NCBI GenBank assembly: GCA_020860565.1
Contig: JAJBUA010000117.1
Location: 1 to 42,146, forward strand
DNA: 42,146 nucleotides
Source: Clostridiales bacterium
Lineage (GTDB): Bacteria > Bacillota > Clostridia > Lachnospirales > Lachnospiraceae
Direction: 5' to 3'
This document shows positions 4,169-16,866 of the stretch, piece by piece; positions within the stretch are counted from its first letter, which is position 1; each line of letters opens with the position of its first letter. The position numbers and the translations under genes were made by a program. The notes under the pieces are model-generated. The model had not been told where the DNA came from. It worked only from the letters and a program-made list of their open reading frames with translations, and ran no database searches.

Positions 4169-5216
4169 CTTCAGATTCCGGTTTGTTCATGATCTGAATA
4201 TTGTAGGGGTCTACGTGGATACCGACCTTTTTGCCGACCGGACAGAGCCGCGAACTGTGAACGAGCCATTCAAAGCCATCGGGAGTGGTGACTTCCATCT
4301 CGTAGAGCGCGCCCTTAAAGATCAGGTGGGTGCAGACTCCGTTTAACAGATCATCCGCCGGCTCGACCAGGTCGATGTCCTCCGGGCGGATCACCACGTC
4401 GACCGGAGCGTGATTGCCAAAGCCCTTGTCGACACAGACAAATTTCGTTCCGAAGATTTCCACCAGCTCATCGTGGATCATCGTGCCGTGCAGGATATTG
4501 CTCTCTCCGATAAAGTCCGCAACGAAGGCGTTTTCCGGTTCGTTATAGACCTGTTCGGGCGTGCCCATCTGCTGGATATATCCCTGGTTCATAACCACGA
4601 TGGTATCCGACATGGTGAGAGCCTCCTCCTGGTCATGGGTCACATAGACGAAGGTGATGCCAAGTTCGTTTTTGAGACGGATCAGTTCGTATTGCATATC
4701 CTGACGCAGTTTTAAGTCGAGCGCACCCAGCGGTTCGTCAAGGAGAAGTACCCGGGGCTCATTGACGATTGCTCTGGCAATCGCGATTCGCTGCTGCTGG
4801 CCACCGCTCAGGGAATCGACAGAGCGGGTCTCATAACCGTCGAGGTTGACGAGTTTCAGAGCGTATTTGATCTTATCGTCGATATAGGATTTGGATTTCC
4901 CTTTGATTTTCAGACCGAATGCGATATTCTCCGCGATATTCATATGGGAGAAGAGGGCGTACTTCTGAAAAACCGTGTTGAGCTGGCGTTTGTTGGGCGG
5001 GAGCGAGGTGATGTCCGTACCGTCAAAGATGACCTTGCCGGTGTCGGGGGTCTCAAAACCGCCGATGATCCGCAGCGTGGTTGTCTTTCCACATCCGCTC
5101 GGACCAAGGAGCGTGACGAAGGAGTTCTCTTTGACAGAGAGATTTAAATCATCCAGAACCAGAGTCCCGTCAAAACTTTTGGAAATATGAGCCAGATCGA
5201 TCAATGCCTGAGCCAT
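4140..5216 (-). CDS. potA: Spermidine/putrescine ABC transporter, ATP-binding protein
   Basis: ATPase subunit of the importer, 358 aa. Walker A is GPSGCGKTT (about residues 40-48), the ABC signature is [14 protein letters not shown], Walker B is VLLLDEP, followed by the D-loop GALD and the H-loop histidine in YVTHDQEEA. The C-terminal ~120 residues form a TOBE-like regulatory domain, as in PotA/CysA/MalK-type ATPases. The start is placed at 5216 because AGGAGG lies 8 bases upstream and MAQALIDL aligns with the expected beginning; an in-frame ATG 39 bases upstream lacks a ribosome site and would overlap the regulator gene. It is the first transporter gene after the XRE-cupin regulator. Confidence 0.95.
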
Positions 5217-5251
5217 AGCAAATTCCTCCTGTGGTAGTAAAATGGTGATAA

Positions 5252-5785
5252 TCAAAAACTGGGCGGGGAGCTTACCCAGATGATCTGGGCTCCCGTTTTG
5301 CTCGTCAGATAATGGCGGGTATCCGATTTAAAATAGAAGGATTCTCCTTTTTTAATGCGGTAGGTGTTTGTCCCAATGTGCAGGATCGCAGCCCCCTGGA
5401 GCACATAGCCGAATTCCTCGCCTTTGTGCGGATTGTCCGGATCCGTGGAACCGCCGGGTTCCAGTGTCAGATGGATGGGTTCCATCGCGTTGTCCAGTGC
5501 ATTGGGGACGATCCATTCGACGGTGTTTTTTAATTCCTCGTCTGTTTTTACAAAATAATCATTTTTCCGGAACAGGATCTGATCTTCCGGCTTTTCATGA
5601 AAGAAAGCGCCGAGATCCGTGCCGAGACACTGCAGGATGTCCGTCAGTGTCGCAATGGACGGTGAAGTCAGATTGCGCTCCAGTTGGGAGATAAAGCCCT
5701 TGGAAAGCTCCGTGCGGTCCGCGAGCTCTTCCTGCGTGAGTTCGTTGAGGATCCGCAACTGTTTTAATTTCGCGCCGATATCCAT
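5252..5785 (-). CDS. XRE-family regulator with C-terminal cupin (PuuR-like)
   Basis: Transcription factor of 177 aa. Residues ~6-60 form a lambda-repressor-type HTH ([29 protein letters not shown]), and residues ~105-172 a small cupin with [13 protein letters not shown] and FKSDTRHYL, which normally binds a small effector. This architecture is shared by PuuR and many regulators placed beside polyamine transporters. The gene is the first of the pot operon, with AGGAGG 6 bases upstream of its ATG, so it very likely controls its own transcript. Candidate operators lie in the 5' leader at 5814-5832, 5847-5862 and 5885-5900. Polyamine sensing is inference from context. Confidence 0.88.
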
Positions 5786-5813
5786 AGTCCGCCTCCTGTA
5801 TGGAAACTATAGT

Positions 5814-5918
5814 AAACGACATCAGGTCGTTTGCTACACTTGGTACTAATCAAAAAGTTTAGCAATATTAAATCGAGGTAAAAGTAATCAAAAAGTTTAG
5901 TTTTAATAAACAAACGAC
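5814..5918 (-). promoter_or_regulatory. Operator-like repeats in the XRE-pot leader
   Basis: This is the leader between the promoter and the regulator gene; the whole 306-base gap 5786-6091 has no other gene. It holds two exact copies of TAATCAAAAAGTTTAG (plus-strand sense) at 5847-5862 and 5885-5900, 38 bases apart; a perfect inverted repeat AAACGAC-5-GTCGTTT at 5814-5832; and one more AAACGAC half-site at 5912-5918 overlapping the predicted start point. Their placement suggests binding by the XRE-cupin protein as a roadblock or looped complex. No clear forward promoter for the lactonase gene was found. Confidence 0.55.
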
Positions 5919-5924
5919 AGCTTG

Positions 5925-5952
5925 ATTATACAGAAAATTAACAGGATGTCAA
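5925..5952 (-). promoter_or_regulatory. Promoter of the XRE-potABCD operon
   Basis: On the minus strand a TTGACA -35 (5947-5952) and TATAAT -10 (5925-5930) are separated by 16 bases, almost perfect sigma-A consensus. The start point would be near 5918, giving a leader of about 130 bases to the regulator ATG at 5785. Such a strong promoter fits one held down by a repressor. Confidence 0.75.
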
Positions 5953-6091
5953 TAGATAGGGAATAGATTTTTTGAGAAATATGTGCTATGATTAACAAAG
6001 TTATGTCAGCGGTGCAGATGATATCGCGCCGCGGCGGGGAAAGGTATAACTCCGGGAAAGATCCATATGTTATCATAACAGGAGGGACAGG

Positions 6092-7174
6092 ATGGAAAAT
6101 AAAGCGAGATACGTGGCCTATGTAGGCTCTTATTCATACACAGGAAAAGCAAAGGGAATCACTGTGATGGCCGTTGATGTGGAGAAAGGCATATTTCTTC
6201 CGAGAACGGAGGTAAAGGTCAATAATTCTTCTTATGTCATTGCTTCGGGCGACGGGAAATTCCTGTATTCGATTGCCGATGAAGGGATTGTGGCGTTTGC
6301 GATCCTGCCGGATGGCGGGCTGGAGAGGATTAACAGCGCGAGCATTAATGGGATGCGGGGCTGCCATCTGTCGCTGGATGAAGAGAACAATATCTTTCTG
6401 GTATCCGGATTTCATGATGGAAAGCTGACGGCGGTGCGCCGCAAGCCGGATGGAAGTATCGGACGGATCGTGGCAGAAGTATTTCATAAAGGACTAGGCG
6501 GTGTGGCAGAGAGAAGCTACCGTCCGCATGTGACCTGCGCGAGGATGAGTCCGGATGGCAAGTATGTGCTGGCCGCGGACTCCGGGATTGATCAGGTGCG
6601 CATTTATCGTTTTAAAAACCGCAGCCTGAAGATGGTGGACAGTATTCGCTGTGATCTGGATTCCTCGCCGCGGTATTTTATCTACAGCCCGGATGGCAAA
6701 TTCCTTTATCTGATCTATGAACAGAAAAATGTCATTGACGTATTTTCCTATCAGGACACGCCGAAGGGACCGGTGACAGAGAAGCTGCAGACGATCTCGA
6801 CCGTTGGAAAGACTACTAAAAAGATCGCGGCAGCGACAAGCCTGCGTCCATCCTCGGATATGAGTTATCTTTTCTGTGGAAATGCCGGAGATGAGACGGC
6901 GTCTGTGTACCGGCGGGACGCGCAGACCGGGCTGCTGACACAGCTCTGTTGTCTGCCGGTGAGCGGGGAGTACCCGAAGGATTTTGCGGTATTTCCGGAT
7001 GACCGGCATCTTGCGTCGATCAATCATGAGAGCGGCACGATCACGTTTTTTGAGATCGACTATGAGAAAGGTCTGCTGCTGATGAATGCGCGCGAGATCC
7101 GCTGCAATGAGCCAAACTGCTGCACAATTGTAAAATTGCCGCAGGAGATGGATGAGAACGAGGAGGAATCCTGA
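6092..7174 (+). CDS. Lactonase family protein (6-phosphogluconolactonase-like beta-propeller)
   Basis: A 360-aa protein of the seven-bladed propeller lactonase family (Pgl/YbhE, carboxymuconate-cyclase related). It starts with YVAYVGSYSYTGKAKGITVM and repeats blade elements of the type SPDGKYVLAADSGIDQVRIYRF, SPDGKFLYLIYEQKNVIDVFSY and FPDDRHLASINHESGTITFFEID. Length is typical. The ribosome site is AGGAGGGACAGG before the ATG. It lies 2 bases before aroC on the same strand, so the two are likely co-transcribed although their functions do not obviously connect. A role in hydrolysing sugar lactones would suit the sugar-acid genes downstream, but the substrate cannot be read from the sequence. 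Confidence 0.82.
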   Translation: MENKARYVAYVGSYSYTGKAKGITVMAVDVEKGIFLPRTEVKVNNSSYVIASGDGKFLYSIADEGIVAFAILPDGGLERINSASINGMRGCHLSLDEENNIFLVSGFHDGKLTAVRRKPDGSIGRIVAEVFHKGLGGVAERSYRPHVTCARMSPDGKYVLAADSGIDQVRIYRFKNRSLKMVDSIRCDLDSSPRYFIYSPDGKFLYLIYEQKNVIDVFSYQDTPKGPVTEKLQTISTVGKTTKKIAAATSLRPSSDMSYLFCGNAGDETASVYRRDAQTGLLTQLCCLPVSGEYPKDFAVFPDDRHLASINHESGTITFFEIDYEKGLLLMNAREIRCNEPNCCTIVKLPQEMDENEEES

Positions 7175-8942: not shown

Positions 8943-8971
8943 TTGTAAAAAAGCCGGTGAGCAAGTATAAT
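8943..8971 (+). promoter_or_regulatory. Promoter of the first LacI-family gene
   Basis: TTGTAA (8943-8948), 17-base spacer, TATAAT (8966-8971). The expected start point near 8978 makes a GTG at 8981 an unlikely initiation codon and supports the GTG at 9014. No copy of the GCAATCGATTGC operator is seen here, so this regulator is probably not controlled by the site that it likely binds downstream. Confidence 0.7.
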
Positions 8972-9013
8972 AATTGAAAAGTGCACAGAACATGGAAACA
9001 GGGAGTGGAAAAA

Positions 9014-10009
9014 GTGACCATTTACGATATTGCGAAAGAGGCCGGAGTAGCGCCGAGCACGGTATCCCGTGTGATTAATAACAAGCCGGGCTTTAAATTT
9101 AAAGAAGAAACCAGACAGAAGATTCTGGCACTGCTGGAAAAATATAATTACACGCCGGATATGGCGGCGCGCGGTCTGGTTATGCAGTCAACCCGGATGG
9201 TCGGCGTCCTGATCGTGGATATCCGTGTGGAGCATCATATCGGCAGTGCTTTTTATATCGAAAAACAGATGACGGAAAAAGGATATTGCACGATCATCAT
9301 GGGTACCGGTATGGAGGATGAGAAAAAGGTAGAGTATATCCGCATTTTGAAAGAACGGCGGGTGGAAGGTGTGGTCCTGATGGGATCTACCTTTATGTCA
9401 GACTGTGTGAAAGAAGAGATTCGCCAGTCTCTTCCGGATATCCCTGTCGTGATGGTCAATGGCTGGCTGGATCTGCCAAATGTCTCCGGCATCGTAGTGG
9501 ATGATGATATCGGTGCGGGGAAATGCGTGGATTATATGGTTCAGAAAGGAAGAAAAAATATTGTCTTTGTCCGGGACGGATACTCTCCGTCGCTGGATCT
9601 CAAGGAAGCTGGATACCGTGTCAGTATGAGAAAACACGGACTGGACGAAATGACCTGCGTATATCAGGCGGGTGACGGGACGCCGGAGGCCGGAGAAGAG
9701 ATCACCCGGCAGATCCTGACCGGGCATCCGGATACGCAGGGAATCATTTATGCGATTGATATCCTGGCAGCAGGAGGAATGAGGACGATTCAGGATATGG
9801 GAAGACGTGTGCCGGAGGATGTCGCGGTGATCGGAATTGATAACAGCATCTACGGCAGGCTCTGTATGCCGAAATTAACGACGCTGGATACCAGAATGGA
9901 GGAACTGAGTAATATAGCGGCGGAGCTTCTGCTGAAAGGACTGGAAGGAAATATTGAAAATGTCCGGCATTCCCTGACTTCGGAAATCGTTGAGAGGGAG
10001 TCGGCGTAG
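9014..10009 (+). CDS. LacI-family transcriptional regulator, copy 1
   Basis: A 331-aa LacI/GalR repressor: N-terminal HTH TIYDIAKEAGVAPSTVSRVINNKPG, hinge-helix region AARGLVMQSTRMVG, then a periplasmic-binding-like effector domain with IYAIDILAAGG and VIGIDNSIYGRLCMPKLTTLD. The GTG at 9014 is chosen because GGGAG precedes it and the paralogue at 11193 starts at the same residue with ATG. Most residues match that paralogue. A two-residue insertion (FKF against I) right after the HTH recognition region distinguishes copy 1 and coincides with a TTTAAATTTAAA stretch. Likely target: the two GCAATCGATTGC palindromes just downstream, before the cyclase-family gene. The effector is unknown. Confidence 0.9.
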   Translation: MTIYDIAKEAGVAPSTVSRVINNKPGFKFKEETRQKILALLEKYNYTPDMAARGLVMQSTRMVGVLIVDIRVEHHIGSAFYIEKQMTEKGYCTIIMGTGMEDEKKVEYIRILKERRVEGVVLMGSTFMSDCVKEEIRQSLPDIPVVMVNGWLDLPNVSGIVVDDDIGAGKCVDYMVQKGRKNIVFVRDGYSPSLDLKEAGYRVSMRKHGLDEMTCVYQAGDGTPEAGEEITRQILTGHPDTQGIIYAIDILAAGGMRTIQDMGRRVPEDVAVIGIDNSIYGRLCMPKLTTLDTRMEELSNIAAELLLKGLEGNIENVRHSLTSEIVERESA

Positions 10010-10065
10010 GTCCGGCGGAGATTGTGTGTTCTGACAGGTATGAGAAAGTGAAAATCACTAACAGG

Positions 10066-10116
10066 AAGAGGGGAACCGACATGGTAATATTGCTCAAAAT
10101 CCCCTCTTATTTTTTG
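10066..10116 (+). terminator. Terminator after LacI copy 1
   Basis: AAGAGGGG (10066-10073) pairs with CCCCTCTT (10101-10108), followed by ATTTTTTG. It separates the regulator transcript from the operator-controlled promoter that follows. Confidence 0.7.
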
Positions 10117-10171
10117 TGGAAAGTTCCGAAATTGTAATTTTCACGCAATCGATTGCCCAAAACGCTTGCAT
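10083..10171 (+). repeat. Upstream control segment, copy 1
   Basis: This 89-base segment matches 12309-12397. Shared blocks in the same order are GGTAATRTTGCT, TTCCGAAATTG, the GCAATCGATTGC operator and GCTTGCAT at the -35. The two copies are the same length with only a one-base shift around the operator. Together with the paralogous LacI genes in front, they show that a regulator-plus-promoter module was duplicated. Confidence 0.75.
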
Positions 10172-10219
10172 TTTCATGAAAAATGTGCTAATTTAAAAAC
10201 ACCAAAAGCAATCGATTGC
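10145..10219 (+). promoter_or_regulatory. Promoter flanked by two LacI-type operators, before the cyclase gene
   Basis: Perfect 12-bp palindromes GCAATCGATTGC lie at 10145-10156 and 10208-10219, with centres 63 bp apart (about six helical turns). Between them is a promoter TTGCAT (10166-10171), 17-base spacer, TAATTT (10189-10194). The central CpG is typical of LacI-family operators. One site lies upstream of the -35 and one just after the start point, an arrangement suited to repression by a DNA loop. Confidence 0.85.
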
Positions 10220-10256
10220 ATTAAGATGTTATTAATTTTAAAGGAGGACTTTTGTA

Positions 10257-11006
10257 ATGAGCGAACTTACTTACGATTGGGTTGCAGGGAAACCCAAAAC
10301 TGTCCCGATGGATCAGCTTCCGCCGAAAGTATATGAGAAGGCCGGACTGCGTATCATCGACCTGACCAAGGTGATTGATCCCAGCACCGAGAGCCGCCGC
10401 TGCAATCTGTGGCGTTTCAATACCGGCGGCGATGTGCCGGATTTCCATACGAATGTGGATATCGGCAGCCATCTGGGAACCCATTGCGAGTGCCCGTATC
10501 ATCATGACAATGACTGGCCAAGCGTAGCAGAGCTTCCGCTGGGACAGTTTGTAGGCAGAGGTATTTATCAGGTTCTGGATCTGCCGGAGGATCATCAGAT
10601 CACTGGTGCTGATCTGGAAGCTGCAATCGGCGACCGTATCCAGCCGGGCGATACCGTAATCCTTGACAGTCCGAATCGGATCCCGCCTTTTACCAGTCTG
10701 ACCGGCGGTCCGACCGATCATCGTCTGCAGGTCGGCGGCGACTGCGCACAGTGGCTGGCAGATCATCAGGTACAGTGCGTTGGTTTTGGTGACGGCGTGG
10801 CGATCGAGGGCAAGGTAGAATTTGTAAAGCCATTCCATGACATTCTGATGGCTCAGAACTGCACCTTCCTTGAAGTGCTGCAGAACCTTGATCAGTTAAA
10901 GAGCGATACGTTCTTTATCAGCTATGCTCCGATCCCGATTATCGGTTTGGATTCCTGCCCGGTACGTGTTTACGCGATCGAAGGACTTCCGGGATTTACC
11001 AGATAA
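10257..11006 (+). CDS. Cyclase-family metal-dependent hydrolase (kynurenine formamidase-like fold)
   Basis: A 249-aa member of the cyclase/KynB-like family (Pfam Cyclase), whose members hydrolyse amides, lactones or related bonds with a bound metal. The metal-binding signature appears as SHLGTHCECPYHHDND (about residues 69-84), fitting H-x-G-T-H-x-[DE]-x-P-x-H with Glu in place of the more common Asp. The start has AAGGAGGAC upstream. Its transcript is a single gene, starting at the operator-flanked promoter and ending at the terminator at 11048-11100. The context (LacI pair, YiaK-like dehydrogenase, TRAP uptake) suggests hydrolysis of a sugar-acid or lactone intermediate rather than formylkynurenine. 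Fold assignment is firm, substrate unknown. Confidence 0.8.
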   Translation: MSELTYDWVAGKPKTVPMDQLPPKVYEKAGLRIIDLTKVIDPSTESRRCNLWRFNTGGDVPDFHTNVDIGSHLGTHCECPYHHDNDWPSVAELPLGQFVGRGIYQVLDLPEDHQITGADLEAAIGDRIQPGDTVILDSPNRIPPFTSLTGGPTDHRLQVGGDCAQWLADHQVQCVGFGDGVAIEGKVEFVKPFHDILMAQNCTFLEVLQNLDQLKSDTFFISYAPIPIIGLDSCPVRVYAIEGLPGFTR

Positions 11007-11047
11007 GGACGGCTAAGATCGGATAACAGGTCCCCCCAGAACCTGGG

Positions 11048-11100
11048 AAGAGGTTGTGGAAACAGAGTATGCCGAACCATGTTTTCACAGCCTCTTTTAT
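11048..11100 (+). terminator. Terminator after the cyclase-family gene
   Basis: AAGAGGTTGTGGAAAC (from 11048) pairs with GTTTTCACAGCCTCTT (11081-11096) through about 16 pairs including G-U wobbles, followed by a T-rich tail at 11095-11100. Confidence 0.75.
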
Positions 11101-11132
11101 ACTACAGCCGCACGGCACCGGGATATCTGCTT

Positions 11133-11161
11133 TTGACGTTTGTTCCAAAATACGGTATAGT
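11133..11161 (+). promoter_or_regulatory. Promoter of the second LacI-family gene
   Basis: TTGACG (11133-11138), 17-base spacer, TATAGT (11156-11161). The start point would be near 11168, after the in-frame upstream ATG at 11079, so the protein must start at 11193. Confidence 0.72.
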
Positions 11162-11192
11162 GAAAGCAGAGAATAATTACGAGGTACAGACA

Positions 11193-12179
11193 ATGACCAT
11201 ATATGATATCGCGAAGGAGGCCGGCGTTGCGGCAAGTACAGTGTCCCGTGTCATTAACAATAAACCGGGGATTAAGGAGGAGACGCGGCAAAGGGTTCGT
11301 GTCCTTCTGGAAAAATACAATTACACACCGGACGCGGCAGCTCGTGGACTGGTCAGACAGTCAACGCGGATGGTCGGTATCCTTGTAGTGGATATCCGTT
11401 CGCCGCACCATATCGGCAGTGCCTTTCGTATCGAGAAGCTATTGACAGAAAAGGGTTATTGTTCGATTATCATGGGTACCGGTGCGGATGATGAAAAGAA
11501 GGCGGAGTATATCCGTATCTTAGAGGAACGCCGGGTAGAGGGCGTGGTGCTGGTGAGCTCGATGTTCATGACCGGGCGGGTGAAAGAGCAGATCCGTCAG
11601 TCACTGCCGAAAGTTCCGATTGTGATGGTCAATGGCTGGCTGGATTTGCCAAATGTCTCCGGGATTGTCACAGATGAGGCTCTCGGCGTGGAAAAATGCG
11701 TTGATCTGCTGATGCAGAAAGGGAAAGAAAAAATCGTATTTGTCCGGGATGGTGATTCCCCATCTGTGGATCTCAAGGAGGCGGGGTATCTTGCCGGCAT
11801 GAGAAAGCATGGCAGGGAGGATATCTGTGTGCGTCAGGCCAGAGAGGGTACGCTGCAGGCCGGATGTGAGATTACGAGACAGATTCTCCGGGAGCAGCCG
11901 GAGACGCAGGGGATTATCTACGCAATTGATATTCTGGCAGTGGGAGGCATCCGAACCGCGCAGGATATGGGGCGCAGGATCCCGGAAGATCTGGGGATGA
12001 TCGGCATCGATAACAGTATCTATGGAGAGATCTGTATGCCGAAGCTGACGACGCTTGATAACAAGATTGCAGAGTCGAGTGAGATGGCGGCAGAACTCTT
12101 ATTGAAAGGGCTGGAGGGAACGATTGAGAGTACCCGTTATCGGATGGAGGCGGAGATTATCGAAAGAGAATCGACTTAA
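11193..12179 (+). CDS. LacI-family transcriptional regulator, copy 2
   Basis: A 328-aa LacI/GalR regulator paralogous to the gene at 9014: the same HTH (MTIYDIAKEAGVAASTVSRVINNKPG), AARGL hinge region, and long identical stretches such as RQSLP, VMVNGWLDLPNVSGIV and QGIIYAIDILA. The HTH recognition residues are nearly identical, so both proteins should read the same or very similar operators. Differences cluster in the effector domain (for example SPHHIGSAFRIEK against VEHHIGSAFYIEK), which would allow different inducers. The start at 11193 is set by the promoter at 11133-11161 and GAGG upstream. The next transcript is the YiaK-like dehydrogenase and TRAP operon, preceded by the second operator pair. 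Confidence 0.9.
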   Translation: MTIYDIAKEAGVAASTVSRVINNKPGIKEETRQRVRVLLEKYNYTPDAAARGLVRQSTRMVGILVVDIRSPHHIGSAFRIEKLLTEKGYCSIIMGTGADDEKKAEYIRILEERRVEGVVLVSSMFMTGRVKEQIRQSLPKVPIVMVNGWLDLPNVSGIVTDEALGVEKCVDLLMQKGKEKIVFVRDGDSPSVDLKEAGYLAGMRKHGREDICVRQAREGTLQAGCEITRQILREQPETQGIIYAIDILAVGGIRTAQDMGRRIPEDLGMIGIDNSIYGEICMPKLTTLDNKIAESSEMAAELLLKGLEGTIESTRYRMEAEIIEREST

Positions 12180-12308
12180 AACCCATAAAGAATAAACGGA
12201 TGATTTAACTGATATGTAAAAACAGAGTGCAAACGGCGTGAGAATGCGTCAGGGTGTATCTTTACTCTTTGGACAGACGGTTTTTCAGATGTTTATCAGA
12301 ATCGCACT

Positions 12309-12397
12309 GGTAATGTTGCTTAAAAAATAACAGAGGATTTTGGCAGAAATTCCGAAATTGCAGGATTTCGCAATCGATTGCGGAAAAGAGCTTGCAT
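12309..12397 (+). repeat. Upstream control segment, copy 2
   Basis: Matches 10083-10171 in order, spacing and length (89 bases). The gap 12180-12674 carries no gene. It contains this segment, the second operator pair, a second promoter and a leader; I saw no convincing terminator directly after the LacI copy 2 stop. Confidence 0.72.
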
Positions 12398-12450
12398 TTG
12401 TTCTGGATCTGTGATATTTTAAAATCACAGTTTCGCAATCGATTGCGAAA
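12369..12450 (+). promoter_or_regulatory. Promoter flanked by two LacI-type operators, before the dehydrogenase-TRAP operon
   Basis: The operator GCAATCGATTGC occurs at 12370-12381 (within a 14-bp palindrome, 12369-12382) and at 12435-12446 (within a perfect 20-bp palindrome, 12431-12450). Centres are 65 bp apart. Between them lies TTGCAT (12392-12397), 17-base spacer, TATTTT (12415-12420). The geometry is almost the same as at 10145-10219. An additional CGAAAT/ATTTCG dyad at 12353-12370 abuts the first operator. Confidence 0.85.
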
Positions 12451-12531: not shown

Positions 12532-12560
12532 TTGAAAAGACGCGGTTTTTATGATATTAT
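12532..12560 (+). promoter_or_regulatory. Second promoter for the dehydrogenase-TRAP operon
   Basis: TTGAAA (12532-12537), 17-base spacer, TATTAT (12555-12560): closer to consensus than the operator-flanked promoter upstream, and outside the operator pair. Transcripts from here would have a leader of about 105 bases to the ATG at 12675. Confidence 0.6.
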
Positions 12561-12674: not shown

Positions 12675-13679
12675 ATGTTAAGAATCAAGTACGAAGACAT
12701 GGTAAGGGAATTTCAGAGAGTGCTTCTCAGCAGAGGATTCAGTGAGAAGAATGCGGCGGATGCGGCGATCGTTTTTGCACAGAACAGCCTGGACGGTATT
12801 TATACTCATGGCTTAAACCGTTTCCCGCGCTTTGTCTCTTATGTGGACAAGGGCGAGATCAAAGCCGATGTCGCGGCCGAGTGTGTGATGTCCATGGGCG
12901 CAATTGAACGCTGGGACGGGCACAGAGGTTTTGGCCCGCTGAACGCCAGACAGGCGATGGCGCGTGCCTGCGAGCTTGCGAAGCAGTACGGGATCGGACT
13001 GGTCGCTCTGGGAAATAACAATCACTGGATGCGCGGCGGCAGCTATGGATGGCAAGCGGCGGATGAGGGATGTATCGGCATCTGCTGGTCAAATACGATG
13101 CCTAATATGCCTGCGTGGGGCGGCAAAGACCGTAAGATCGGCAATAACCCGATCATCTTTGCGGTGCCGAAGAGCAATGGCGATCATGTGGTTGTGGACT
13201 GCGCGGTTTCTCAGTTTTCTTACGGCAAGATCGAAGAAGCGAAGCTCAAGGGGATTCAGCTCCCGGTGCCGGGCGGATATGATGAAGAGGGTAATCTGAC
13301 TACAGATCCGGCGGCGATTGAGAAGACCTGGCGGGTACTTCCGATGGGATATTGGAAGGGGAGCGGCATCTCTGTATTGCTTGACCTGATTTCTACGGTG
13401 CTGACAAATGCCAATTCGGTTCAGAAGATCGGAACCTTTGGTGACGAAGTTGGTTTATCACAGATCATGATCGCGATTGACCCGGGCAAATTTAATGACA
13501 CGAAGACAACTGACCGTATTGTTGAGGAACTGGAGGCAGATATTAAGTCGTCGATTCCGGCAGTTGAGGGAGGAAAGGTCTTCTATCCGGGCGAGATTGA
13601 GATCAATACCCGCAGAGATAACCTTGCGAACGGAATTCCGGTGATTGAAGAGAAGTGGGAGGAAGTGCAGAATCTGTAA
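12675..13679 (+). CDS. yiaK: Ldh2/YiaK-family NAD(P)H dehydrogenase (2,3-diketo-L-gulonate reductase-like)
   Basis: A 334-aa malate/L-lactate dehydrogenase type 2 family protein, the fold unrelated to classical Rossmann lactate dehydrogenases. It shares with E. coli YiaK/DlgD many diagnostic stretches: SRGFSEKNA, THGLNRFPRF, LGAIERWD-type text, NHWMRGGSYGWQAADEGCIGICWSN, PILPMGYWKGSG-type text at VLPMGYWKGSGISVLLDL, and DEVGLSQIMIAID. YiaK reduces 2,3-diketo-L-gulonate with NADH, and in E. coli it also sits beside a YiaMNO TRAP transporter, as here. The start has AAGGAAGGG upstream. Other Ldh2 enzymes act on sulfolactate or ureidoglycolate, so the subfamily assignment is good but the exact substrate is inferred. 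Confidence 0.83.
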   Translation: MLRIKYEDMVREFQRVLLSRGFSEKNAADAAIVFAQNSLDGIYTHGLNRFPRFVSYVDKGEIKADVAAECVMSMGAIERWDGHRGFGPLNARQAMARACELAKQYGIGLVALGNNNHWMRGGSYGWQAADEGCIGICWSNTMPNMPAWGGKDRKIGNNPIIFAVPKSNGDHVVVDCAVSQFSYGKIEEAKLKGIQLPVPGGYDEEGNLTTDPAAIEKTWRVLPMGYWKGSGISVLLDLISTVLTNANSVQKIGTFGDEVGLSQIMIAIDPGKFNDTKTTDRIVEELEADIKSSIPAVEGGKVFYPGEIEINTRRDNLANGIPVIEEKWEEVQNL

Positions 13680-13748: not shown

Positions 13749-13775
13749 TACGCAATACTTAACCGTATGCGTAAA
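13749..13775 (+). other. Hairpin before the TRAP binding-protein gene
   Basis: TTACGCA and TGCGTAA, extended by TAC/GTA across one bulged base, form a stem of about ten pairs just before the dctP ribosome site. No T-run follows, so an mRNA-processing or stabilising hairpin is more likely than a terminator. Confidence 0.4.
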
Positions 13776-13805
13776 AATATAATAAATAAAGAGGGGAGAT
13801 TCAAA

Positions 13806-14909
13806 ATGAAGAAACAAATTTCACTGGTAATGGCAGGTTTACTGGCAGCGGCTTCGCTGGCAGGCTGCGGTTCGAGCAGCTCATCGACAACAACAGCTAC
13901 GACTGCGGCGGCGGCAGACGGAGGAGCTGCAGCGGCTACCGAGGCAGCGGCTGCTGAGACAACGGTGACTCCGGAATTGAACCTGATTGTTGCGTCCAAC
14001 CAGACTTCTCTGGATAACCCGTACTCCTATGGTATGGATAAGTTCAAAGAAGTGATTGAGGACATTTCCGGCGGCAAGGTTCAGGTTACCGTACATAAAG
14101 GAACTCTGGGTGAGAATGAGTCCGAGCTGGTTGAGAAGCTGAGCATGGGCGCAGCCAATATGATCGTTACTTCTCCGGGATTTATGACCGCGATCGGCGT
14201 ACCGGAGATCGATATTTTCTCACTGGAGTATCTGTTTGACAGCTTTGATCACTGGGAGACCTGTCTGGACGGTGATTTTGGCAACGCGATGAAGGATATC
14301 GTTCTTGAGAAGACAAATAACCAGTTCCGTGTTATGGGCTACTGGAGCTCTTCCGTGCGCGACGTATATGCTAAGAAAGCAGTTACCAGCCCGGATGATT
14401 TAAAGGGTCTTACTATCCGTGGACAGTCTTCTAACGTACAGCAGGAATTCTGGATCGCCTGCGGCGCGGTTCCGCAGAACGTAGCATGGGGCGAGCTGTA
14501 TCAGGCACTTCAGCAGGGCGTAGTAGACGGTGCTGAGAATGACTATACCAACCTGATGCAGAAAGAGCATCATAAGACCGACAACGGCAAATACATCTCT
14601 GAGACTCATCATGACTTTACAACCCGTCTGTGGCTGATGGACGGTAACTACTACAACAGCCTGACTGACGAGCAGAAGGCATGGATTGAGGAAGCTTCTG
14701 AGGCTGCTACTCAGGAAGAGCGTGAGGTTACCTTCCGTATGTTCGAGGAATCCAAGCAGAAATGTATCGATGACGGCGCAATCATTACAGAGAACGCAGA
14801 TATCGACATCGCAGCATTCAAGGCACTGGCAACTCCGATTCAGGATAAGTTCGCAGAAGAGAATGGCCTGACCGAGGAGCTGGAGATGATCCGCGCTGCG
14901 GCACAGTAA
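13806..14909 (+). CDS. dctP: TRAP transporter solute-binding protein (DctP/YiaO family)
   Basis: Extracytoplasmic binding lipoprotein of a TRAP transporter, 367 aa. The signal peptide MKKQISLVMAGLLAAASLAGC ends in the lipobox LAGC (Cys about residue 21), followed by a Ser/Thr/Ala-rich linker unusually long and low in complexity. Mature DctP features include GKVQVTVHKGTLGENESELVEKLS, the conserved arginine region KGLTIRGQSS (carboxylate binding), and VDGAENDYTN. The start at 13806 has GAGGGGAG upstream; an in-frame ATG at 13767 is rejected because it puts 13 residues ahead of the signal peptide. TRAP transporters take up carboxylates or sugar acids in exchange for a sodium or proton gradient. 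Confidence 0.92.
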   Translation: MKKQISLVMAGLLAAASLAGCGSSSSSTTTATTAAAADGGAAAATEAAAAETTVTPELNLIVASNQTSLDNPYSYGMDKFKEVIEDISGGKVQVTVHKGTLGENESELVEKLSMGAANMIVTSPGFMTAIGVPEIDIFSLEYLFDSFDHWETCLDGDFGNAMKDIVLEKTNNQFRVMGYWSSSVRDVYAKKAVTSPDDLKGLTIRGQSSNVQQEFWIACGAVPQNVAWGELYQALQQGVVDGAENDYTNLMQKEHHKTDNGKYISETHHDFTTRLWLMDGNYYNSLTDEQKAWIEEASEAATQEEREVTFRMFEESKQKCIDDGAIITENADIDIAAFKALATPIQDKFAEENGLTEELEMIRAAAQ

Positions 14910-15094: not shown

Positions 15095-15580
15095 ATGAGA
15101 AAAGCAATTGACCTGCTGGCTAAGATTCAGATCGCGGTCGGCGCGCTTTTTCTTTTTATATTCATGATGACCGTAGTCATCCAGATGGCCTGCCGTTATA
15201 CGGGTGTAGCGGCTACCTGGACAGAGGATGTATCGATGTATTCGTTCATCTGGGCGGTCTTTATGGGAGCAGGCGCGATGGTTCATGAGAAGCGCCATTT
15301 TGCGTTTACTTCGATCAGTGATATGCTGAAAGAAGGAACCGTAAAACGGTTGTTATCAATTATTATCTGCATTATCATGCTGATCTTTGCATTTCTGATG
15401 CTGAAATATGGCATTGCGGTAACCAAACAGTTCTGGAATTATACATGGAATAATATTCCGTCCTTTAAGAGAGGCCCGACATGGCTGTGTCTGCCGATCT
15501 GCGGCGCGACGTCCTGTATTTATCTGATCGAGGAGATTATCGACTCGGTTCTTGCGTTGGGAAAAGGAGGGAATAACTGA
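15095..15580 (+). CDS. dctQ: TRAP transporter small permease (DctQ/YiaM family)
   Basis: A 161-aa membrane protein with four hydrophobic segments (IQIAVGALFLFIFMMTVVIQ; YSFIWAVFMGAGAMVHEK; LLSIIICIIMLIFAFLML; LCLPICGATSCIYLIEEII), matching the DctQ layout. The cytoplasmic-face WTEDVSMYSFIW and HEKRHFAF segments are typical of the family. It pairs with the large permease whose ATG overlaps its stop by one base (TGATG). The start follows AAAGGGG. Confidence 0.9.
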   Translation: MRKAIDLLAKIQIAVGALFLFIFMMTVVIQMACRYTGVAATWTEDVSMYSFIWAVFMGAGAMVHEKRHFAFTSISDMLKEGTVKRLLSIIICIIMLIFAFLMLKYGIAVTKQFWNYTWNNIPSFKRGPTWLCLPICGATSCIYLIEEIIDSVLALGKGGNN

Positions 15581-16866
15581 TGGGTGCATTGCTGGTAATT
15601 ATGTTTGTCTTGTTTGTAGCGCTCGGCGTGCCGATTTCCTTCGCACTTGGCGTGGTGTCCTTTACCGGTATCGCGGCGATGCAGCAGATCCCAAACACAG
15701 TTGTATTTACAAAGATGTTCAATGGTCTGAACAGCTTTACGCTTCTTGCGGTTCCGCTGTTCATCCTTGCGGCTAACCTGATGAATGAAGGTGCGATCAC
15801 AGAGAAGCTGATCGATTGCTGTAACGCTCTGGTAGGACATTTCCGCGGAGGTCTGGCGTACTCAAATGTACTGGTATCCATGATCTTTGCCGGTATCTCC
15901 GGTTCTTCTCAGGCAGATACGGCCGGCGTCGGTAAGATCTTTATTCCTTCCATGGAGAAGCAGGGATATGACAAGGGTACTTCCGTAGGTGTTACGGCAG
16001 CTTCCTCGACGCTGGGATCGATTATCCCGCCGAGTATTACGATGGTTGTGTACGCGGGTATTGCGAACTGTTCCACGGGCGCACTGTTCATGGCTGGTAT
16101 TGTACCGGGTGTTCTTCTCGGACTGGCGATGATGGCCGTTGTAAAATATTATTCCAAGAGGAAGAATTTCCCACAGAGTGAGCGTGTGCCGGTGCCGCAG
16201 GTGATTAAGCTGGTTCTTCAGTCTCTGCCGGCGCTGATGACTCCGATCATCCTGATTGGCGGTATTACCTGTGGACTTTTCACTCCGACCGAGTCAGCCG
16301 CGTTTGCCTGTGTGTATGCGCTTCTGGTTGGTATCTTCTATTATCACACCATCAAGATCCGCAATCTGCCGCGTATCCTGGTAGAGACGATGAAGATGGC
16401 GTCCCTGTCCCTTTTCGCACTGGCGACTGCGAATGCACTGGGCGAGCTGCTCAGCTACTATCAGCTGAACGTCAAGGTTCAGGAGTTCTTCGGCAACCTG
16501 CAGGGCGGCCGTCTGATCTTCCTGCTTGTAGTAGTCTGCTTCTTTATGTTTGTTGGTACCTTTATGGATGCGGTTCCGGCGATGATCCTCTTTGTGCCGA
16601 TCATCCTTCCGGCTGCGACCAACCTTGGTATCAGCCCGATTATCATGGGTCTGATTATCGTAGTAACCCTGGCGCTTGGTCTGGTTACACCGCCTTACGG
16701 CCTGTGTCTGCTGATTGCTTCTTCAATCAGTGGTATTACGATCGAAGATGCGTTTAAGGGAACGCTGCCGTACTTCCTGTCTTCACTGGCAGTATTGGCG
16801 TTGCTGATCCTGTTCCCGGATTTCTGGCTGGCGATCCCGGCTACGGTTTTCCCGTCGATGTTCTAA
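15580..16866 (+). CDS. dctM: TRAP transporter large permease (DctM/YiaN family)
   Basis: A 428-aa membrane protein with about 11-12 hydrophobic segments, the usual DctM size. Family text includes LGVPISFALGVVSF near the N-terminus, SGSSQADTAGVGKIFIPSMEKQGYDK-type text in the first scoop loop, ASSTLGSIIPPSITMV, TPTESAAFACVYAL, and LGLVTPPYGLCLLIAS near the C-terminus. It forms the transport channel with DctQ and receives substrate from DctP. It is the last gene of the operator-controlled operon; a strong hairpin terminator follows at 16929-16980. Confidence 0.94.
   Translation: MGALLVIMFVLFVALGVPISFALGVVSFTGIAAMQQIPNTVVFTKMFNGLNSFTLLAVPLFILAANLMNEGAITEKLIDCCNALVGHFRGGLAYSNVLVSMIFAGISGSSQADTAGVGKIFIPSMEKQGYDKGTSVGVTAASSTLGSIIPPSITMVVYAGIANCSTGALFMAGIVPGVLLGLAMMAVVKYYSKRKNFPQSERVPVPQVIKLVLQSLPALMTPIILIGGITCGLFTPTESAAFACVYALLVGIFYYHTIKIRNLPRILVETMKMASLSLFALATANALGELLSYYQLNVKVQEFFGNLQGGRLIFLLVVVCFFMFVGTFMDAVPAMILFVPIILPAATNLGISPIIMGLIIVVTLALGLVTPPYGLCLLIASSISGITIEDAFKGTLPYFLSSLAVLALLILFPDFWLAIPATVFPSMF

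Follow-up and report, generated by a model that had tools for sequence, protein, structure and literature searches.

Two repressor genes and two operator-bearing promoters

This analysis concerns a 42,146-nucleotide stretch of DNA (the window: positions 1 to 42,146 of the forward strand of contig JAJBUA010000117.1, assembly GCA_020860565.1) from a gut-type Clostridiales bacterium of the Lachnospiraceae, in which two genes for LacI-family repressors, here called lacA and lacB, stand near one another, each followed by its own pair of putative operators and its own promoter. The order is lacA, two operators, a cyclase gene, lacB, two operators, a yiaK-like dehydrogenase gene and the genes of a tripartite ATP-independent periplasmic (TRAP) transporter, all genes and promoters being read on the plus strand. 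A first reading of the letters alone, the original prediction, had placed the two LacI reading frames at 9014..10009 and 11193..12179, and both are present there. The former, lacA, encodes 331 residues from a GTG start set by homology, and the latter, lacB, encodes 328 and is, by Pfam, tree and gene context, the positional counterpart of the single copy found in relatives; a match to the consensus places a probable promoter ahead of each (TTGTAA-17-TATAAT at 8943..8971 for lacA, TTGACG-17-TATAGT at 11133..11161 for lacB).

The control segments that follow these genes (segment A, 10111..10219; segment B, 12338..12446) each hold two exact copies of GCAATCGATTGC, named A1 (10145..10156), A2 (10208..10219), B1 (12370..12381) and B2 (12435..12446, with flanks TTTC/GAAA), to which no strand is assigned. 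These are the only exact copies in the 2,825,184-base assembly (2.83 Mb), where the reversed control pattern occurs 0 times, and the four one-mismatch sites found elsewhere in the genome all lie on other contigs. Since GCAATCGATTGC is a palindrome with a central CG beside a LacI gene, as is characteristic of LacI/GalR sites, it is a predicted operator. Each pair brackets a candidate promoter, P1A (TTGCAT-17-TAATTT, 10166..10194) or P1B (TTGCAT-17-TATTTT, 12392..12420), with TG ahead of the second hexamer. In a check for autoregulation, no site with at most two mismatches was found directly ahead of lacA or lacB; a site with one mismatch or better stands ahead of the single lacI in 12 loci of the genus.

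Downstream of segment A lies a gene for a cyclase-family (PF04199) hydrolase (10257..11006), whose product scores 34.9 bits against the arylformamidase model TIGR03035, well below the cut-off of 223.05. Downstream of segment B lie the yiaK-like gene (12675..13679), whose product scores 456.2 bits against an NCBIfam cut-off of 316 for 3-dehydro-L-gulonate 2-dehydrogenase, and the transporter genes recognized by Pfam, namely dctP for the solute-binding protein (13767..14909), dctQ for the small permease (15095..15580) and dctM for the large permease (15580..16866).

Descent of the pair and of its promoters

LacA and LacB are 73% identical (724 of 1001 aligned columns match in the DNA of their genes), and both carry PF00356 and PF13377 above the Pfam cut-off, that is, the LacI/GalR architecture; among the 17 and 18 NCBIfam models listed for named equivalogs (CcpA, RbsR, PurR, GalR and others), none was above its cut-off, the best score being 172.3 bits against 382 for the RbsR model NF047341. 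The same pair is found in the Clostridiales isolate BH.7_2 (locus L025), which we take, from matching contig coordinates, to be genome G306 of a comparison set in which the genome of the window is G000. As two assemblies carry the pair, with orthologues 95-96% identical, an assembly artefact is ruled out; and as the frames are intact and the ratios of nonsynonymous to synonymous change (dN/dS) against the L025 orthologues are low (dN 0.021 and dS 0.376 for LacA, 0.023 and 0.355 for LacB), so is a pseudogene reading of either gene.

A tree of 36 LacI proteins places the two LacA and the two LacB proteins of these species in one clade, with support of 100/100. The tree was built without L034, L056 and L057, which come from the same genomes as L080, L087 and L088, and without a second, 32%-identical LacI of L069; in it and in the alignments L028-L033 and L036 were replaced by the refetched contigs L077, L076, L073, L078, L083, L079 and L086. 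At 14 positions LacA and LacB have one residue in common, and at least 17 of 19 single-copy proteins agree on a different one. Within the pair, LacA is the faster copy in all five relative-rate tests, the outgroups of which are themselves related (33-38 against 18-20 unique changes; p 0.0075-0.036).

The relatives mostly retain the unduplicated state, a check which the original prediction had proposed. A LacI match at E<=1e-50 occurs in 19 of the 24 genus genomes; 17 of these 24 have one clear match, at an identity of at least 45%, mostly ahead of yiaL or yiaK, and two, G000 and G306, have the tandem pair, while three others contain an additional LacI of 32-33% identity elsewhere. Among 299 genomes of the family, 11 matched, including that of the window, and none of the other 10 had a second match at E<=1e-60. 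Thus, across the 299 family genomes, the 24 genus genomes and 15 further contig loci, the tandem pair is confined to the genome of the window and to BH.7_2. The commonest single-copy order begins with lacI and an operator pair and continues with yiaK, frequently with a yiaL-like gene and one more operator between them and with another yiaL behind yiaK; where the contig extends far enough, dctPQM follows; the single lacI stands ahead of yiaK or yiaL in most of the loci fetched. Upstream of it, a cyclase gene on the other strand and a GntR gene are found in L026, L035, L037, L072, L077, L079 and L085, with panE beside the cyclase in six, and G305 and some family-level loci have other arrangements.

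The promoters appear to have been copied together with the genes. Segments A and B, which had been predicted to align, do so with 86 of 116 columns matching. When the operators are masked and bridged without contributing to the score, the alignment still reaches 40, whereas 2000 base shuffles gave 19 on average and 30 at most; if they are masked and left unbridged the best local score is 27 (a value for which no shuffles were run), located just upstream of the operators. Unmasked, the mutual score is 69 and the best score of either segment against any of 15 relatives is 44, the stretch of L074 used in that comparison having stopped short of its operators. The promoters themselves were described beforehand as near-identical, which goes too far, as only 36 of 56 aligned columns match between the operators. 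As for geometry, the first hexamer of P1A and P1B lies 42 and 43 bases ahead of the operator; among 18 relatives, a set without L035, L037, L083 and most family-level loci, a like promoter (TTG..., 17 bases, TGnTA...) occurs in 17, with its first hexamer 40-42 bases ahead of the main operator. That hexamer is TTGAAA or TTGCAA in 16 relatives and TTGCCG in L038, and L088 differs. The two operators of a pair are 63 and 65 bp apart in the window and in BH.7_2, spacings absent from the 30 relative loci compared, of which 23 have 129-185 bp, L064 has 33 bp and six yielded no distal operator. Of the signs that gene and promoter were copied together, this shared new spacing, combined with the change of the first hexamer to TTGCAT, is the best. 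In other words, the two copies are nearest relatives, a single copy stands at the same place in the relatives and the promoters are related by descent, so that the predicted duplication of repressor and promoter in tandem is supported.

The spacings of the relatives form a series of their own, stepped by about one helical turn (129-131, 141-142, 152-154, 162-163, 172-173 and 185 bp in the 23 of 30 loci, for example L026, L072, L073, L076, L077 and L087), with a best period of 10.6-10.7 and a concentration of 0.89-0.90 that none of 5000 random sets reached, and this holds if near relatives are merged, by reading of the tree, to 15 values. Both the test and its range of 125-190 bp were conceived after the numbers had been seen; it left out L064, which does not fit, and six loci that offered no usable pair of sites, and passed over a middle site of L079. 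A third site follows after another 26 bp in L062 and L069, and in L069 one of the far sites contains two mismatches. The series suggests DNA looping that is kept in phase.

Operator core, DNA-reading head and ligand pocket

Exact operators accompany this LacI through the genus, being present in 18 of the 19 genomes that have it and in one of the five that do not (Fisher p 0.002, which is only a guide because the genomes are related); a lacI match is present within 2 kb of 26 of the 29 exact sites, and the three exceptions belong to G308 (two) and G317 (one). The G317 site, at 6211 of contig C17 (locus L133), is placed between an unrelated LacI and a downstream gene that by eye resembles a gene of the phosphotransferase system (PTS); this LacI is about 25% identical and has in its recognition helix a Pro-Ser pair as in LacA, and G317 contains no match at E<=1e-50. 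The four sites of the window and the four of BH.7_2 all have the same 12-bp core.

The corresponding heads of the two proteins are 84.5% identical (49 of 58 positions), and the effector parts 71% (192 of 271). Contact and pocket positions were assigned by sequence alignment onto E. coli LacI and PurR, the predicted models supplying no coordinates, with the contact positions of those two proteins as the guide; at the DNA contacts listed LacA equals LacB except at LacI positions 17 and 30 and in a two-residue insert of LacA. In the predicted models both proteins retain the three helices of the head, with a post-helix loop two residues longer in LacA (mean predicted local distance difference test score, pLDDT, 85.1 for LacB and 83.9 for LacA). 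A passage of Camas et al. (2010, PMC2978694) singles out residue 16, in GalR numbering, as the one with the strongest influence on operator bases 4-5 and describes residue 15 as flexible. Residue 16 is Ser in both LacA and LacB, so on that account the same operator core would be expected for both, and the shared core and this residue together predict an isorepressor pair binding the same sites. The shared operator code that had been proposed is supported for the core; the flanks of the A operators differ at position 8. The DNA-reading helices had been called almost the same, but the heads are less alike than that, and the proposal overlooked Pro14 against Ala14 and the LacA insert.

It had further been proposed that the effector domains differ and that the two repressors answer to different inducers. 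The first of these claims is overstated: besides the identity of 71%, 17 of the 22 inferred pocket positions are the same in the two copies of the window, among them LacA H74, H75, N149, S191, S193, K197, G222, I248, I250 and D276. The second lacks support from that same count; in addition, of the 14 residues that LacA and LacB share against the single copies, two (S222G and L250I) fall at inferred pocket positions.

Probable growth of a regulon and the competing explanations

Taken together, these findings make it probable that a regulon has grown by duplication of a repressor and its promoter, leaving two near-redundant co-repressors at an early stage of divergence. In the ancestor of the species of the window and BH.7_2, a single LacI gene and the operator-bearing promoter that follows it would have been copied locally or, as an alternative step, would have overwritten a neighbouring module with its copy through recombination. 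This copy, LacA together with P1A, would then have come to stand ahead of a cyclase gene probably belonging to the same pathway, and the cyclase would have joined the regulon of the repressor. That both modules serve one pathway, as predicted, is supported by the gene context of G110 (L069), where yiaK, yiaL, the TRAP genes, panE and the cyclase lie in a row behind one LacI. At each promoter, one LacI dimer would sit on GCAATCGATTGC just upstream (centre at about -51 from an assumed start) and another just after the start (about +12), and both would block RNA polymerase at P1A and P1B until a compound of the pathway, probably a sugar acid handled by the transporter and YiaK, releases them. Either repressor probably still recognizes every one of the four sites, and the compounds that the two sense are probably identical or very similar, with LacA as the drifting copy, its DNA-reading head included.

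A number of observations weigh against this account, and several of them feed the alternatives that follow. P1A and P1B match the sigma-70 consensus poorly (6 of 12 and 7 of 12 positions), and a general scan listed neither. Downstream of both B operators lies a second promoter-like element, P2 (TTGAAA-17-TATTAT with TG, 12532..12560), which does not agree with a simple view of one bracketed promoter per module; the original prediction for the yiaK unit missed this conserved element. P2 resembles the yiaK promoter of relatives without their operator: in 12 of 16 relatives TTGAAA-17-TGnTAAAAT stands ahead of yiaK with a one-mismatch operator 6-7 bases behind it, and in three more (L072, L026 and L035) an exact operator lies 11-14 bases behind a like promoter, which in L072 and L026 is the post-lacI promoter itself, no gene standing between; in L074 the site is present and a like promoter was not found. 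In the 220 bases ahead of yiaK, neither the window nor BH.7_2 has an operator with at most two mismatches, though the P2-like promoter is kept. Consequently, yiaK may partly escape direct control by the repressor, its unit being driven mainly or partly by an operator-less P2.

The head of LacA has changed where that of its relatives has not. It has Pro14 (codon 9053..9055, LacI position 17) where LacB and 19 of 19 compared single-copy proteins have Ala14, so that the recognition-helix proline is carried by LacA and not by LacB; it has Phe at LacI position 30 in place of Ile29 of LacB; and a six-base insert in its gene (9092..9097) adds Phe-Lys to the loop behind the recognition helix, which, by alignment and predicted model, the L025 orthologue shares and 19 of 19 compared single-copy proteins lack. 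At flank position 8, none of the eight A half-sites of the two species has T, compared with 69 of the 87 counted in single-copy relatives and with seven of eight at the B promoters; in the window alone A against B gives 0 of 4 versus 3 of 4 (p 0.14), and its four A half-sites against the single-copy relatives give p 0.003. For the relatives, a half-site was counted only if its GCAATC core was intact, which left 87 of the 126 in 20 loci; those of A and B were counted by eye, and the comparison was chosen after the data had been viewed, with two species that are not independent and few independent sites. These changes in the head of LacA and the missing flank T mean that cross-binding may already be weakened. 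One alternative is that repressor and operator are beginning to part, with insulation of LacA and its operators from LacB and its own under way, LacB needing the TTTC/GAAA flanks and LacA being indifferent to them, so that cross-talk would be asymmetric and LacB poor on the A sites. The head changes confined to LacA and the A operators without T agree with it, as do the B operators, which keep TTTC/GAAA in both species save for one base, and a passage of PMC1464816 reports that repressor-site divergence was simulated from lac mutant data and co-divergence of repressor and operator found possible. Nevertheless, neither species shows any variation of the 12-bp core among its four sites, residue 16 has stayed the same, the exact site in G317 also stands beside a LacI that is unrelated and has the Pro-Ser pair, and the window alone gives no more than p 0.14 from a post hoc comparison; we regard such parting as rather unlikely at present. 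The same changes lend something to a different idea, that LacA binds DNA poorly and works solely as a modulating partner of LacB, or is in the course of being lost, for which one may point to the insert directly behind the recognition helix, to the faster change and to the lower predicted confidence at residues 21-30 (pLDDT 69 against 86 in LacB). Yet the dN/dS of LacA is as low as that of LacB, its three helices are kept in the predicted model and neither species has a mismatch in the two operators of its promoter, so that this is very improbable.

Two further alternatives concern the signal and the source of the A module. That a shared operator code is read under different inducers, giving control of one pathway by two signals, can appeal to the effector part, less conserved than the head, and to the five of 22 inferred pocket positions that differ (V72/S70, M123/V121, V162/T160, M295/I292 and L298/S295, for A/B), which tell likewise against a common inducer; at V162/T160, however, LacB of L025 has Val, and the ten identical positions named above, from LacA H74 to D276, and the 14 shared residues of derived type, with S222G and L250I in the inferred pocket, make it improbable. 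The other alternative starts from G305, where L088 has at 9002 a lacI of the same broad group, directly ahead of two one-mismatch operators and a cyclase at 10410. In a tree that left out L110 (which has stops inside) and duplicates, the cyclases of the window, BH.7_2 and G305 form a clade (100/100) apart from the common type of the genus, that of G305 being the nearest relative of the window's outside BH.7_2 (74%), and each lies behind a LacI and an operator pair; within 800 bp upstream of 32 other cyclase loci, of which L117 offers only 180 bp, no operator with at most one mismatch was found. Those loci have a panE-like gene nearby in 30 of 32 cases and a gene like the GntR of L026 in 14 of 32. 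A lacI-operators-cyclase module of the G305 kind could thus have been transferred in beside a resident lacI-yiaK module. Against this, a grouping of LacA with the LacI of G305 is rejected by the approximately unbiased (AU) test (p 2e-5), as is a grouping of LacA and LacB with it (p 1.5e-4), and promoter A resembles promoter B (score 69) and not that of G305 (27). The tree tests therefore disfavour transfer of the whole module, which was the refuting case named in the original prediction, and do not disfavour transfer of the cyclase gene alone, which may come from elsewhere; independent arrival, to which we give a slim chance, would hold only for the cyclase or if repressor and promoter were later overwritten by a local copy. 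An older LacI-cyclase module may therefore have contributed: the cyclase may have come in by transfer, or a copy of the local repressor and promoter may have overwritten such a module.

The yiaKLMNOPQRS unit of E. coli combines a YiaK-like dehydrogenase with a TRAP transporter. The locus in the window has the same combination, and relatives also have YiaL-like genes, but here control is by the LacI family and a cyclase-family enzyme has been added. GalR and GalS, the genes of which lie apart in the E. coli genome, share the gal operators, and are likewise a pair of LacI-family paralogues whose sites overlap within a single pathway, while the pair in the window is adjacent and each member has its own copied promoter. 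A passage of PMC3877293 describes GalR and GalS as isorepressors of one subfamily. With regulon growth by duplication as our preferred account, the nearest precedent is the second of three types distinguished in a passage of Ravcheev et al. (2014, PMC4052901), in which the copy of a duplicated LacI-family repressor gains a gene that the parent did not control; in the present case the operator-bearing promoter was copied too, in tandem, and its 12-bp core is still identical. The same source has GntR of E. coli recognizing the sites of IdnR, these again being recently duplicated LacI-family repressors of which one still reads the sites of the other, with sugar effectors of similar structure, but there some regulated genes were also duplicated and here the captured gene is no copy of a regulated one. 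In Bifidobacterium breve, AraQ and MalR1 are two LacI-type regulators acting on common genes, widely across central metabolism according to a passage of PMC6882875, as opposed to the one local pathway of the pair in the window.

The kind of event is therefore known, namely LacI-family duplication with gene gain, and the use of this case is that it offers an early, testable stage. A search for literature on this kind of repressor pair or operon gave nothing on this locus among the matches listed, and two of the lists (15 of 2,957 and 12 of 210 matches) were mostly off-topic, which makes that negative a weak one. The way in which a duplicated repressor acquires sites of its own has for the most part been deduced from events long past, and a passage of PMC4052901 has it that intermediate states of RbsR/PurR cannot be observed and cites AglR/ThuR as an observable intermediate. 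The pair in the window looks recent enough to show the parting: it is confined to two of the genomes searched, with 17 of 24 of the genus in single copy, and only a few changes separate its two heads and the flanks of their operators, which makes the steps testable.

Two minor observations concern genes related to those of this pathway. In the genome of the window itself, the panE homologue (68%) lies on contig C53 (locus L132, about 4650-6630), next to another YiaK-like gene (42%); a GntR-like regulator is about 5 kb away, and no operator with at most one mismatch was found there. The single lacI of L077 (G311) is preceded by a further dctP-like gene, divergent and accompanied by a one-mismatch operator (8081 and 9272).

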